NCBI RefSeq assembly: GCF_021025955.1
Contig: NZ_JAJNCL010000001.1
Span: forward strand, 372,001-436,000
Source: Rhodococcus qingshengii
GTDB lineage: Bacteria; Actinomycetota; Actinomycetes; Mycobacteriales; Mycobacteriaceae
DNA: 64,000 bases
Direction of reading: 5' to 3'
Below, piece by piece: positions 42,920-47,925 of the stretch. Numbering within the stretch: the first letter of the stretch is position 1; the number at the start of each line of letters is the position of its first letter. The position numbers and the translations under genes were made by a program. Below the pieces are notes generated by a model. That model was not told the origin of the DNA. It ran no database searches and saw nothing but the letters and a program-made list of their open reading frames with translations.

Positions 42920-44005
42920 ATGAACGCACCGGAGTTGACCACGATCCGCAGCGCACCCAAAGTTCTTCTCCACGACCATCTCGACGGAGGACTCCGACCC
43001 GAGACTGTTCTCGAACTGGCCGAGCAGTGTGGCTACGACGAGCTGCCGGCGAATTCGGCATCCGAACTGGCACAATGGTTCCGAACTGCCGCTGACAGTG
43101 GTTCACTCGAGCTCTACCTCGAAACGTTCGCGCACACAGTCGCCGTGATGCAGACCCCGGAAGGGCTTGCACGGGTGGCACGTGAGTGTGCCGAGGATCT
43201 GGCCGACGACAACGTCGTCTATGCCGAAATCCGTTTTGCGCCCGAGCAGCACCTGGAACAGGGCCTGAGTTTGGACGAGGTCGTCGAGCACGTGCTCGAG
43301 GGCTTCCGAGCCGGCGAATCCGCTGCCAGGGTCGCGGGACGGGAGATCCGAATCGGGTGTCTCCTGACGGCGATGAGGCATGCCGCCCGGTCGCGTGAGA
43401 TCGCCGAACTCGCGGTGCGATTCCGGGACCGCGGAGTGGTCGGGTTCGACATCGCCGGCGCCGAGGCCGGAAACCCACCGAGCCGGCATCTCGACGCTTT
43501 CGAATACATGCGTGATGCGAACGCTCACTTCACGATCCACGCGGGTGAGGCCTTCGGATTGCCGTCGATCCACGAAGCGATCGCGTTCTGCGGAGCGGAC
43601 CGGTTGGGGCACGGCGTGCGGATCGTCGACGACATCGACGTAGGCGGCCACGGTGGGGCAGAGCTGGGTCGGCTCGCAAACTACGTCCGTGACATGCGCA
43701 TCCCCCTGGAACTGTGCCCGAGTTCGAATGTACAGACCGGAGCCGTAGCCGCCCTGGCGGACCATCCGTTCGGACTGTTGGCGGACTTGCGTTTCCGCGT
43801 GACCGTCAACACCGACAACAGGCTGATGAGCGATACCAGCATGAGCCGGGAAATGGCGGCGTTGGTCGAGGCCTTCGGTTACGGCTGGACCGATCTGGAA
43901 CGCTTCACCATCAATGCGATGAAGTCGGCCTTCATTCCGTTCGACGAGCGCCTCGCGTTGATCGACGATGTCATCAAGCCGGGTTACGCCGTGCTCATCG
44001 GCTAG
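42920..44005 (+). CDS. add: Adenosine deaminase
   Basis: Zinc-dependent deamination of adenosine and deoxyadenosine to inosine in purine salvage. 361 aa. Zinc ligands His18 and His20 in LLHDHLDGG, then [10 protein letters not shown] (zinc His/catalytic Glu), GHGVRI, and [16 protein letters not shown] where TD/N is usually TDDP. The gene follows deoA by nine bases, a compact salvage operon cdd-deoA-add matching Rv3315c-Rv3313c. Confidence 0.94.
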
Positions 44006-44020
44006 ATGACGTGCACCCGA

Positions 44021-45259
44021 CTACTCAGGTCGCAACCGGGCCTCGAACTCACGCTCGAGTTCACGCCAGGCCTCGGATTCCTTGGTGAACGGCGCACTCG
44101 GGGCCATCCGGGACGGATCGGGGTTGAGAAGGTAGGAGACGTACCAACCCAGCTCGTTCGACGCGGACAGAACTTCCTCGGTGGAGTCGTCGTCGGCGAA
44201 ATCCGCTGCATCGGTGAACAATTCGACGGCAAGCTCCAACTGCTCGGCGTCCACCACGTCCGGGCCCTGTGCGAGGTCGTCGGCGATGCCGGGCAGAACG
44301 TAGACGTTCTCGTCCGTGACTTCGATTTCGAGTGAACCGTCGACGGCAGCATTCTGAATTTCGCCGTACGTGCTGACCTGCGAGAGATCGTGTTCGTGGT
44401 TGTCCGCGAGATAACGAGCGAGTGCGCGCTCGCTGCGGAAGACGGTGATCAGTCCGTCCTTGCCCAGGAAGATCGCCTGATCTCCCATGTAGCAGCGCAG
44501 AGTGTAGAACGTCTCGGCCGAGGTGATGATGCGGATCGGATCGACGCCGACCTCGCCCCAGAAGGTCTCGACTTCGTCTTCTTCCTCGTCGAGGTCGTCC
44601 TCGTCGAATTCCTCGTCCTCGCCCTCCTCGGCGACATCGTCGGCGTCGACGGTGTTCTCGGCAGCAGCGAGCAGTTCAGCTTCGGCGACCGCGACGGCGG
44701 CAGCGTCGACCTTCGGGGAGGTGACCACCTTGTCGATGGCGTCGAGAACGGCATCCCAGTCCTTGACGATTGCGGCACCGACCTGATCCCACAGCTCAAG
44801 TCCTTCGCGACCTTCGAAGGTGCCGGCGCCGGTGGCCAGCGCGCCGAGTACCGGATGGCCGCTGAAGAAGCGGATGACCGCGTCGAGTTCGCACACCTCA
44901 CCGATGTTGCGAGCCATGTTCAGGGTGTCTTCGAGTTCCGAGACCACCAGTGCCTCAGGGTCACCTGCGGCCAGCTCGGGCACGCCGACGAAGTCGAAGG
45001 TGAAGTTCTCTTCGGGCTCGAGCTCGGCTGCCGACAGTCCGGAGACGACGGCCCACGCCGGATGCTCGACCAGGTCGTTGTCCGAGTCGGTGCGGATGAA
45101 GGCCGCGAGTTCCGCGACGGAGGAGAACCCGTAGAGGTCTTCCTCATGGCCGAGAAACGCTTCCCACTCGTCGTCGCCCTCGCGCCAGCGGGGTGCCCAC
45201 AAAGTGACGAGGTCTCCGTCGGTGAGTCCGATTTCGATAGGGACGATGTCTCCAGCCAT
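44021..45259 (-). CDS. Rv3311-like conserved protein (often labelled primosomal protein), unknown function
   Basis: 412 aa, cytoplasmic, strongly acidic. N-terminus MAGDIVPIEIGLTDGDLVTLWAPRWREGDDEWEAFLGHEEDLYGF. A highly charged linker (AEEGEDEEFDEDDLDEEEDEVE) separates two halves, the second reading ITSAETFYTLRCYMGDQAIFLGKDGLITVFRSERALARYLADNHEHDLSQVSTYGEI. Position beside add corresponds to Rv3311 in M. tuberculosis. The label primosomal is not supported by any motif I can see. ATG 45259 is preferred; a GTG at 45310 overlaps the upstream gene as GTGA and would add 17 residues. Confidence 0.82.
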   Translation of the reverse strand: MAGDIVPIEIGLTDGDLVTLWAPRWREGDDEWEAFLGHEEDLYGFSSVAELAAFIRTDSDNDLVEHPAWAVVSGLSAAELEPEENFTFDFVGVPELAAGDPEALVVSELEDTLNMARNIGEVCELDAVIRFFSGHPVLGALATGAGTFEGREGLELWDQVGAAIVKDWDAVLDAIDKVVTSPKVDAAAVAVAEAELLAAAENTVDADDVAEEGEDEEFDEDDLDEEEDEVETFWGEVGVDPIRIITSAETFYTLRCYMGDQAIFLGKDGLITVFRSERALARYLADNHEHDLSQVSTYGEIQNAAVDGSLEIEVTDENVYVLPGIADDLAQGPDVVDAEQLELAVELFTDAADFADDDSTEEVLSASNELGWYVSYLLNPDPSRMAPSAPFTKESEAWRELEREFEARLRPE

Positions 45260-45306
45260 GGGCGGAAGCCTATCCACCGCAGAGCGAAAGGCATAGCGGG
45301 GGTTGG

Positions 45307-45606
45307 TCACGTTTGTTTCAGCGACACGCGGAGCTCACCCACCAGCCGTTCTCGTTCATCATTGGACTGCTGAACTGCCTGGTGAATGGTTCCCACCGTC
45401 AGTGCGGCTACCGTGCGCGAATCCATGGCGGTGATCGCATCGGTGATCCGCAAGTCGACCAGAGCACCCAGCCCGTCGACAGTCGCTGTGACTATCCCAC
45501 CTTCACTCGAGACGACTGCCCGCAGAGCGTTGACCCCGTCGACGGCGTCCTGCAACAGCCCGGTGCGGTGTTTCGCCAGCTCCATGATTCGATCCATCTC
45601 GTTCAT
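45307..45606 (-). CDS. YbaB/EbfC-family DNA-binding-like protein (EspL-like)
   Basis: 99 aa. N-terminal helix MNEMDRIMELAKHRTGLLQDAVDGVNALRAVVSSEGGIVTATVDGLGALVDLRITDAITAMDSRTVAAL resembles the YbaB/EbfC hairpin (G-V-T-A-T-V-D-G-x-G-x-L), a fold also used by EspL-type proteins beside ESX loci. It overlaps the previous gene by four bases. Last member of the four-gene cassette. Role unknown; DNA binding or chaperone-like action are both possible. Confidence 0.78.
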   Translation of the reverse strand: MNEMDRIMELAKHRTGLLQDAVDGVNALRAVVSSEGGIVTATVDGLGALVDLRITDAITAMDSRTVAALTVGTIHQAVQQSNDERERLVGELRVSLKQT

Positions 45607-45956
45607 ATCGAACGCATCCAGCTCGACGGCAGGTTCTGGTCCTCTGTGGCGTCGACATCAGCCAGTTCGTCTCGCGTCGCGAGACCGAGTCGATCGAGGA
45701 TGGCCGCAGGGACGCCGGTCTGCTCGAGCTCCACACGATGGCGGACACCGGCTTCGATTGCAGCCTTCGAGGACAGCGCGAGTATCTGCTGCGCCAACCG
45801 TGCGCCGCCGTACCGCAGTTCACCCTGGCTGATCCGCAGGTCCACAGGAACGGCGTGCTCCGTGGCGCGGACTGCGATGGTTCCGGCGCGGTTGACGGCG
45901 ACGGCGGTGATGATCGGCGGTGATTCCCGCAGGTTCTCGGACATGTTTCCTGTCAT
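45603..45956 (-). CDS. Hypothetical protein of the type VII-like cassette
   Basis: 117 aa with no signal peptide or membrane helix. Sequence PPIITAVAVNRAGTIAVRATEHAVPVDLRISQGELRYGGARLAQQILALSSKAAIEAGVRHRVELEQTGVPAAILDRLGLATRDELADVDATED suggests a small beta-rich N-terminal half (again a G-T-I-x-V-x-A pattern reminiscent of YbaB) and a helical C-terminal half. I do not recognise a named family. Four-base overlaps on both sides indicate obligate co-translation with the NlpC/P60 and YbaB-like genes. Confidence 0.75.
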   Translation of the reverse strand: MTGNMSENLRESPPIITAVAVNRAGTIAVRATEHAVPVDLRISQGELRYGGARLAQQILALSSKAAIEAGVRHRVELEQTGVPAAILDRLGLATRDELADVDATEDQNLPSSWMRSI

Positions 45957-46909
45957 TCTGTCGGACGGTAGAAGCCGTGAAAGCCCATGCCGCTGTTCGC
46001 GGTTCGGATGGAACTGACTTCGACTGGGTCACCGGCTTCCACCATCTGACCGTTGCCGATCACCATGGCGACGTGTCCGTCCCATACCGCGAGGTCGCCC
46101 GGCATCAGATTGTTCTGATCGACCTGGTTCCCGATTCCTTGTTCCTGGGCCAACCGCGGAATATCGACTCCGGCTTGGCCGTACGCCCATTGCGTCAACC
46201 CGCTGCAGTCCAGACCGACTCCGGGTGTCGTGCCTCCCCACGCGTACGGGACACCCTGCTGAGTGAGCGCGTTGCGTACGGCGGCAGCGGCCTCCGCGTT
46301 CGGTGCGGTGGCGATCGAGCCGTCGGGAAGTTCGACCTCTACACCGCCCGCGGAACCGGAACCACCCGCCGACTCGGAGACTCCAGGTGCGGGATCGGGT
46401 ATCGGGACGGGCGGGATCAGCGCGGACATCTTGTCGGTCGACCCGGCCAGCTCACTGCGTACCCGCTCGACCACCGAGACCGCCCGTCCGAGGTGCTCCA
46501 ACGCGGCCGACAGCAACATCAATTGCCCCATCGGCGTGGCGAGCGTCGGCCCGGCCTGGATTGCGAGGGCCAGAAAGGACTGAAGAATCTCACCGAGTTC
46601 GGTCACTCCCGCGGATACGTACGTTGTCGCTTCGTCCACGACGCCGGCGATGTCGCTTCCACGATCGGCGAGGTCTCGCGTCGACGTCTGCGTCTGCTCG
46701 GATTTCGTCACCGCTGCCGTGAGGCCAGTCGACGAGCCCTGAGCGGACGCCAGTTCGCTCAGAGCAGCGCTCCCCAATTGGTAGGCGATCTCGAGGACGT
46801 CCGAAGCGATTCGGATTCCGACGTCGGGTCCACCCGGGCTGGTGACACCGGTCCCGACAGTGTCGACCAGATCGATGATCGGTCGTGCGAGTGCGTCGAC
46901 GTCGATCAT
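45953..46909 (-). CDS. NlpC/P60 peptidoglycan hydrolase with WXG-like helical N-domain, probable type VII substrate
   Basis: 318 aa. Residues 1-165 are helical without a Sec or Tat signal (PIIDLVDTVGTGVTSPGG ... SALEHLGRAVSVVERVRSEL), then a Pro/Gly/Ser linker (PPVPIPDPAPGVSESAGGSGSAGG), then a C40 peptidase domain: Cys235 in GLDCSGLTQWAY, His279 in DGHVAMVIG, Glu291 in MVEAGDP, the same Cys-His-Glu triad and spacing as RipA. Cleavage of D-iGlu/meso-DAP bonds in peptidoglycan is expected. With an EspC-like partner immediately upstream, export through an ESX system is inferred. Confidence 0.87.
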   Translation of the reverse strand: MIDVDALARPIIDLVDTVGTGVTSPGGPDVGIRIASDVLEIAYQLGSAALSELASAQGSSTGLTAAVTKSEQTQTSTRDLADRGSDIAGVVDEATTYVSAGVTELGEILQSFLALAIQAGPTLATPMGQLMLLSAALEHLGRAVSVVERVRSELAGSTDKMSALIPPVPIPDPAPGVSESAGGSGSAGGVEVELPDGSIATAPNAEAAAAVRNALTQQGVPYAWGGTTPGVGLDCSGLTQWAYGQAGVDIPRLAQEQGIGNQVDQNNLMPGDLAVWDGHVAMVIGNGQMVEAGDPVEVSSIRTANSGMGFHGFYRPTE

Positions 46910-47220
46910 GAGCGTGCGGCTTCGGTGAGAGTCGTTCGTACCGATTCCTCGGAGTCAAGATAGACGGCATGAGCGTCAATGGCGGCTGACCGGACACTGG
47001 AAATCACAGTGGACAGTCGATCGATGTCGTCGATGTGCGCTTGTTGTGCCCGGCCCGCGACACCGACGAAGTCGCCGCCGATCAGCCCCAGCACAGCGGA
47101 CAGAGTCATGTGATCGCTACCGGCTGCGTCCTGTCGAGCTTGCGCGACGTTGTCGGCAACAGCGCCCAACCGCGTGGCGAACTCCGCGATGCTTTCGGTG
47201 TCTAGATCCAGATTGGTCAA
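46906..47220 (-). CDS. EspC-like (type VII secretion target / WXG100-like) protein
   Basis: 104 aa, all-helical in appearance. [93 protein letters not shown]; the pattern of two helices around a short turn, with a WXG-equivalent turn lacking Trp, matches the EspC family. TTG start at 47220 follows GGGGGGAAG at ideal spacing. First gene of the cassette, divergent from upp. Probably the export partner of the NlpC/P60 protein, with which it shares a four-base overlap. Confidence 0.82.
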
Positions 47221-47295
47221 CTTGTCTTCCCCCCGTTGCGCTTACTCCTTCTTGGACGCCGCGCGGGGTGCTTCGGTTCCCGAGGAACTATTCTG

Positions 47296-47925
47296 ATGGT
47301 CATGCAAACGCACGTAGTCGACCATCCGCTCGCGGCGGCCCTCTTGACGACAATGCGTGACGCACGCAGTGAGAACGCGACTTTTCGTTCCGCACTTCGC
47401 AGGCTCACGCACATGCTGGTCTACGAGGCCATGCGTGACGCGGAAGTCGAGGAGTTCCCGGTCGACACCCCGGTGGCAGCGACGACGGGCATCCGGCTCG
47501 CGAAGCCGCCATTGCTGGTGCCGGTGCTGCGCGCCGGTCTGGGCATGGTCGAACAAGCCAGTGCGCTGATCCCGTCGGCCGGCGTTGGCTTTGTCGGAAT
47601 GGCCCGGGACGAAGAGACACATCAGCCGGTTCCGTACCTCGAATCCCTGCCCGCGGATCTGTCCGGTATCCCGGTATTCGTGCTCGATCCGATGCTCGCG
47701 ACCGGTGGTTCGATGGTGCACACCATCGACTTGCTGGTTGCGCGTGGCGCGACCGATGTCACGGCAGTGTGCGTCGTAGCTGCTCCGGCCGGCGTCGATG
47801 CGCTGGCAGCCTCCGGACACCCGGTGCGTCTGGTCATCGCGAGCATCGACGACGGACTCGACGAGAACGCTTTCATCGTCCCCGGTCTCGGTGACGCCGG
47901 CGATCGGCAGTTCGGACCCCGCTAG
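47296..47925 (+). CDS. upp: Uracil phosphoribosyltransferase
   Basis: Converts uracil and PRPP to UMP. 209 aa. N-terminal [47 protein letters not shown]-binding [19 protein letters not shown], uracil site [27 protein letters not shown]. Start ATG 47296 has GAGGA nine bases upstream; ATG 47302 is an alternative. The stop shares CTAG with pmmB. Confidence 0.96.

Follow-up and report, generated by a model that had tools for sequence, protein, structure and literature searches.

A satS-terminated operon in Rhodococcus qingshengii encoding a candidate type VII-secreted cell-wall hydrolase

We describe a group of five minus-strand genes in a 64,000-nucleotide stretch of the Rhodococcus qingshengii contig NZ_JAJNCL010000001.1 (positions 372,001 to 436,000, hereafter the window), which encode, in order of transcription, an EspC-like protein (gene 1), an NlpC/P60 protein of the C40 peptidase family (gene 2; NlpC in relatives), two small YbaB-fold proteins (genes 3 and 4, P3 and P4) and a homologue of the export chaperone SatS (gene 5). 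This grouping is an old operon ending in satS and is widespread in relatives of the tuberculosis bacterium. We consider it probable, if by no means certain, that the operon specifies a substrate pair of the ESX-4 type, one partner of which bears a wall endopeptidase domain, served by YbaB-fold chaperones and perhaps by SatS.

A coupled chain of five genes

Genes 1 to 4 are coupled by three 4-bp ATGA overlaps, and their coordinates are those of the original prediction, which was made from the letters of the window and described four minus-strand open reading frames linked end to end as a cassette. The four linked genes stand, but the chain extends to a fifth, since another 4-bp overlap (GTGA) couples gene 4 to the satS homologue (Table 1). 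The TTG start of gene 1 is conserved in all eight loci compared (L040–L047). Among 76 homologous pairs of gene 1 and NlpC, 38 share the 4-bp overlap and 72 are separated by a gap of no more than 20 bp; these statistics, together with an order that recurs across genera, place the arrangement beyond chance.

Gene 1 falls just short of the Pfam EspC model (PF10824; 21.8 bits, cut-off 23.5), which its relatives at L120 (32.0 bits) and L247 (30.6 bits) pass. Its C-terminal YxxxE reads YLDSE, and YxxxD/E occurs in 74 of 81 EspC-like proteins of the family against 9.6 expected from shuffled tails. Gene 2 matches NLPC_P60 in Pfam at 69.4 bits (cut-off 23, E 3e-19), and the triad proposed for it, Cys235-His279-Glu291, is invariant across 40 aligned orthologues, in agreement with its assignment as a C40 peptidase. 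The spacing of that triad had been called RipA-like; this is right for the His-to-Glu step, which is 12 in both proteins, but not for the Cys-to-His step, which is 44 in gene 2 and 49 in RipA (C383, H432, E444; residue numbers from PDB titles). The C40 domain resembles the Rip family, RipC being the best model.

The N-domain of gene 2 had been described as helical and signal-less. It is PPE/WXG100-like, and hydropathy reveals no signal peptide. WXG100 matches are found in 12 and EspA_EspE matches in 5 of 40 relatives; WxG is present in 58 of 79 relatives, with AQG at that place in the window protein and no WxG in its clade. A Pfam scan returned no PE or PPE family match for either gene 1 or gene 2. 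A type VII substrate cassette with a wall hydrolase had been proposed, and the substrate-like pair agrees with it; the cassette is, however, not the stand-alone addition then envisaged but rather part of an operon ending in satS. Elsewhere in the same genome lies a second pair on the minus strand (L009 8601-8278 and 8281-6938, G000:C6), an EspC-like protein with a larger partner of 447 aa whose N-domain is 37% identical to that of gene 2 and which has a Gly/Ser/Pro-rich tail and no enzyme domain. Two N-domain matches are present in many genomes of the family.

The YbaB-like character of gene 4 is confirmed by a Pfam YbaB match over the cut-off (E 3e-8). P3, previously left as "YbaB-like/unknown", has no Pfam match, and a profile search of solved structures returned nothing credible for it; its relatives, profile and model assign it the YbaB fold too. 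By analogy with EspH, a YbaB-fold protein proposed as the chaperone of EspE (PMC6107294), P3 and P4 are probably chaperones of the adjacent substrate. Gene 5 matches the SatS model NF050072 at 502 bits (E 1e-150), its residues 18–429 aligning with model positions 1–427, a score below the curated equivalog cut-off of 700 bits. It is a SatS homologue; functional equivalence would be a claim beyond this score.

Table 1. Features of the operon and its flanks (positions in the window)
Feature	Position	Strand	Remarks
Gene 1, EspC-like partner	46906..47220	-	104 aa; TTG start
YxxxE of gene 1	Tyr87 (46962-46960) to Glu91 (46950-46948)	-	
Gene 2, NlpC/P60 (C40) protein	45953..46909	-	318 aa; PPE/WXG100-like helical N-domain ~1-175, C40 domain ~205-318
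Catalytic Cys235 codon	46205..46207	-	
Catalytic His279 codon	46073..46075	-	
Glu291 codon	46037..46039	-	third triad residue
Gene 3 (P3), YbaB-fold protein	45603..45956	-	117 aa; probable chaperone
Gene 4 (P4), YbaB/EbfC-family protein	45307..45606	-	99 aa; probable chaperone
Gene 5, SatS homologue	44021..45310	-	429 aa; GTG start; the Rv3311-like gene of the original prediction
upp	47236..47925	+	divergent flank; true start probably ~60 bp further in, by eye
add (adenosine deaminase)	42920..44005	+	convergent flank past satS

Spread of the operon and its ties to ESX and SecA2

The satS region was fetched from 116 genomes, one locus per genome, in a non-random sample of which 36 were taken by best N-domain match and the rest to cover genera and exceptions; 115 of these loci contain satS, L044 being without it. 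NlpC lies upstream of satS, on the same strand and within 6 kb, in 94 of the 115 (a scripted count of 92, plus three loci where the satS frame overlaps NlpC, L084, L113 and L118, minus one 3' fragment in G131), and 26 of the 31 genera have this arrangement in one or more of the genomes fetched. The full order EspC-NlpC-P3-P4-SatS is found in many genera and the shorter EspC-NlpC-SatS in others; in genera g8, g12 and g18 (five genomes: G007, G037, G011, G017, G043) no orthologue with the N-domain was found. The coded genera include Corynebacterium (g3), Dietzia (g4), Gordonia (g9), Williamsia (g11), Jongsikchunia (g13) and Mycolicibacterium (g29, including M. xanthum). In Corynebacterium the gene 1 profile fails, yet all 19 loci have a same-strand open frame of at least 75 aa ending no more than 12 nt from the NlpC start codon, a count that has no chance control; these small frames were read by eye, the 406-aa frame at L141 not being one of them. 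The block also extends to the Pseudonocardiales (Saccharothrix, Lentzea, Amycolatopsis, Actinokineospora), where a SatS profile match was obtained in five of the six named loci fetched and none at the Amycolatopsis locus (L205). A survey of gene order across relatives had been called for, and the order recurs from genus to genus; the earlier picture of an add-on within an otherwise conserved salvage block gives way to that of an old operon, and a recent insertion of the cassette is ruled out by the same recurrence.

In mycobacteria the slot between upp and satS has several tenants. EspC-NlpC stands upstream of satS in 8 of the 17 Mycolicibacterium satS loci fetched. At other loci the slot is taken by a SapM-like phosphatase (L160, L161 and L163; Phosphoesterase over the cut-off in both scanned, L160 and L163), by a DUF218-like protein (L105, L158 and L159; L159 scanned) or by PE-PPE-type proteins on the opposite strand (L162 and L164; L162 scanned); in G215 (L157) NlpC is found ~7 kb from satS. 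The original prediction placed the cassette where M. tuberculosis has sapM, which is right in the sense that sapM is an alternative tenant of this slot in some mycobacteria. By its spread, the NlpC cassette is the older tenant of the two. At L102 (3265-6590; G197, also Mycolicibacterium) two GTPase-like genes, IniA/IniC-like by eye, lie on the opposite strand between EspC-NlpC and satS, and the one scanned matches Dynamin_N.

The one EccC that we could find in the R. qingshengii genome is encoded together with EccB, EccD and an Esx pair (L125, L126), on the same contig as the cassette and ~160 kb away from it. By eye, the neighbours of this locus are rpoA, rplQ, truA, glmM and glmS, a neighbourhood that we take to be the usual place of ESX-4. 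ESX-4 orthologues are reported for all mycolic-acid genera surveyed, Rhodococcus included (PMC4791881). Export by an ESX system encoded elsewhere, as had been proposed, agrees with this sole EccC in a separate ESX-4-type locus; genome G105, considered below, weighs against a strict dependence on ESX.

Beyond the original prediction, the same cassette stands beside eccC in five genomes of two other genera. In G025, EspC-NlpC-P3-P4 directly follow eccC in a region that also contains eccD, eccB, a PE-family protein and two WXG100 proteins, and at the satS locus of this genome an EspC-like gene remains, with an N-domain frame that lacks C40. Four genomes of genus g14 (G060, G041, G013, G077) read eccC-EspC-NlpC-P3-P4-Esx-Esx on one strand, and the cassette is absent from the three g14 satS loci fetched. 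The five eccC-located NlpC proteins fall into a single clade (support 0.988) among the satS-located ones, which points to a single relocation, retained since.

EccC is over the cut-off in 241 of the 251 genomes of the family. G234 and G241, which have none, were excluded as incomplete genomes (82 and 83%). Four Corynebacterium genomes (G087, G126, G138, G240) were rejected as ESX-less counter-examples, as each has one long frame (1059–1197 aa) with tandem sub-cut-off matches, likely a diverged EccC; EccD is under the cut-off in these four as well, in a scan that had no positive control from a Corynebacterium whose EccC scores well. The likely presence of a diverged EccC in them raised our confidence in the ESX-4 substrate reading slightly. 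Four well-assembled genomes are left with FtsK-like matches alone (38–43 bits) and no EccD: G222, G245, G034 and G105. The first two, of one lineage with SatS identical at 403 of 414 positions, have cassette remnants only, and their close relative G185 (SatS 407/414 versus G222) has both EccC and the cassette; in G034 nlpC is interrupted by an element with a serine recombinase. Within the genus of the window, NlpC is found in all 19 genomes with EccC and in neither of the two without.

SatS is matched in 246 of the 251 genomes, the five misses being genomes 82–88% complete. SecA2 is over its cut-off (725 bits) in 148, a count that depends on that threshold, three g14 genomes scoring 718–724.5, and in none of the 21 genomes of the window's genus, the best match in R. 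qingshengii itself being 472 bits. SatS has been described as an export chaperone of the SecA2 pathway whose gene is transcribed together with that of its client, sapM (PMC6333443). The distribution suggests that the SecA2 pathway cannot be the sole role of SatS; as SatS is common without SecA2, the published role may be a later specialisation, and the age and spread of the grouping indicate that SatS may originally have served a wall enzyme of this kind.

Several loci carry insertions at nlpC. Inserts of ~9 kb in a Dietzia genome (G034; L253 C2:109000-122000, with L129) and ~41 kb in Williamsia soli (G131; L251/L252, C24) interrupt the gene, both where the conserved Val-Glu-Ala-Gly that includes the catalytic Glu is encoded; the G034 insert carries a resolvase/recombinase-domain protein, and 12 bp at this place are common to its two ends. 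Serine-recombinase elements may use these codons as a site of integration. Further inserts, of 1.3 to ~42 kb, separate nlpC from P3 or satS at L254 (G215), L062 (G110), L073 (G118), L128 (G105) and L044/L250 (G155). In G215 and G110 another fragment of the nlpC 3' end is present downstream, so this end of the gene may be a target for insertion more widely. The longest exact repeats of it, looked for at 13 loci as a sign of insertion, were 20 bp at G215 and 14 bp at G105; the other 11 loci have no such repeat of at least 14 bp.

Proposed function and its alternatives

We suggest that the five genes could act as one translationally coupled operon to make and export a wall endopeptidase. Gene 1, bearing the YxxxE type VII signal, would pair with the N-domain of gene 2, as PE does with PPE and EspC with EspA, and P3, P4 and perhaps SatS would keep both partners in a ready state in the cytosol. 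Export of the pair would need no Sec signal and would here most likely take place via the single ESX-4-type system. Outside the cell the C40 domain would cleave the stem peptides of peptidoglycan and so open or remodel the wall at sites where this is needed for the ESX apparatus or for growth. Pairing, chaperoning, export route, enzyme activity and purpose are predicted here from sequence, fold and gene neighbourhood. More speculatively, and with appreciable doubt on our part, SatS might at root be the chaperone of an ancient ESX-4-type wall-hydrolase set (EspC-like, WXG/PPE-NlpC and two YbaB-fold proteins) rather than a SecA2 accessory, the hydrolase being an actinobacterial counterpart of EssH that opens peptidoglycan for ESX-4; the set would then have been lost in some mycobacteria, where a SapM-like gene replaced it and SatS was redirected to Sec-type clients.

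Strict dependence on ESX is weighed against by one genome, the complete-looking G105 (L128), in which cassette and satS are intact and EccC, EccD and SecA2 are all absent over the cut-off. The retention of the cassette in G105 without EccC and EccD would suit a route in which NlpC is exported without a classical signal through a SatS-dependent Sec-type pathway (SecA2 if present, otherwise SecA1), the EspC-like protein and the N-domain acting as a holding or inhibitory pair only. Such a route would also suit the position of satS as the steadiest neighbour of the EspC-NlpC pair, the published precedent of SatS and sapM as chaperone and client from one transcript (PMC6333443), and the SapM-like gene occupying the same slot in some mycobacteria. 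We nevertheless regard this route as unlikely, given that gene 2 has no signal peptide, that YxxxD/E is conserved in the gene 1 family, that SecA2 over the cut-off is missing both from the window's genus (0/21) and from G105 itself, and that in five genomes the cassette has moved beside eccC without satS.

The recurrence of the same partners in most sampled genera, and of EspC-NlpC-P3-P4 together at the eccC locus, makes it improbable that a cytosolic or recycling hydrolase is merely co-transcribed with unrelated small genes in a compact region, even though short gaps are common in compact genomes and the C40 domain is Rip-like, with RipC as best model. The role in competition that had been raised earlier fares no better. 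A protein that joins a secretion domain to an enzyme, and an N-domain paralogue with a different C-terminus in the same genome, are what a type VII-delivered wall hydrolase aimed at competitors might display; however, the 40 aligned members share one conserved, not variable, C-terminal enzyme domain, no immunity gene was recognised among the neighbours, both small ones being YbaB-fold, and the place of the gene is nearly fixed across genera. Such wide conservation at one place fits housekeeping, and we hold a weapon to be very improbable.

To our knowledge, the passage of ESX systems through peptidoglycan and the cargo of ESX-4 are open questions in the field; a hydrolase that is conserved and bears type VII signal features is a direct candidate here. 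As a type VII substrate pair with both an enzyme domain and probable chaperones of its own, the cassette would be of a known kind; its tie to SatS is the most surprising part of the finding. The slot common to the NlpC cassette and the SapM-like gene joins two export stories so far told apart, and the spread of SatS without SecA2 loosens the tie between those two. No description of the cassette was found in the literature searched, where coverage of subscription papers is thin and absence therefore unproven.

Comparison with known systems

In layout the operon resembles the ESX-1 sets EspA-EspC-EspD and EspE-EspF-EspH (with EspL), which likewise combine an EspC-like partner, a larger helical partner and a YbaB-fold chaperone nearby (PMC6107294). 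EspH, EspD and EspL are YbaB-fold chaperones of the same fold as P3 and P4, a comparison made by description. Unlike these sets, the operon has a larger partner with a C40 domain, two YbaB-fold proteins and satS at its end. With PE/PPE and WXG100 pairs it shares YxxxD/E on the small partner and a helical hairpin N-domain, whereas the window clade lacks WxG and has no PE/PPE family match.

Gene 2 has its C40 domain in common with RipA, RipB, RipC, RipD and Rv0024 (RipE). RipA and RipB have signal peptides (PMC12067865), and in gene 2 the N-domain is PPE/WXG100-like instead. Comparable to gene 2 in its proposed purpose is EssH of the Staphylococcus aureus type VIIb system, a dedicated wall hydrolase of a type VII system (PMC13059805); EssH is a CHAP-domain protein from a different system, whereas gene 2 has a C40 domain, no signal peptide and a substrate-like N-domain with a partner. 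Finally, in the sapM-satS pair of M. tuberculosis, satS immediately follows a gene whose product is exported or substrate-like, as it does here (PMC6333443); the client gene in the window is, however, NlpC with its EspC-like partner rather than signal-bearing SapM, in a genome with no SecA2 over the cut-off.
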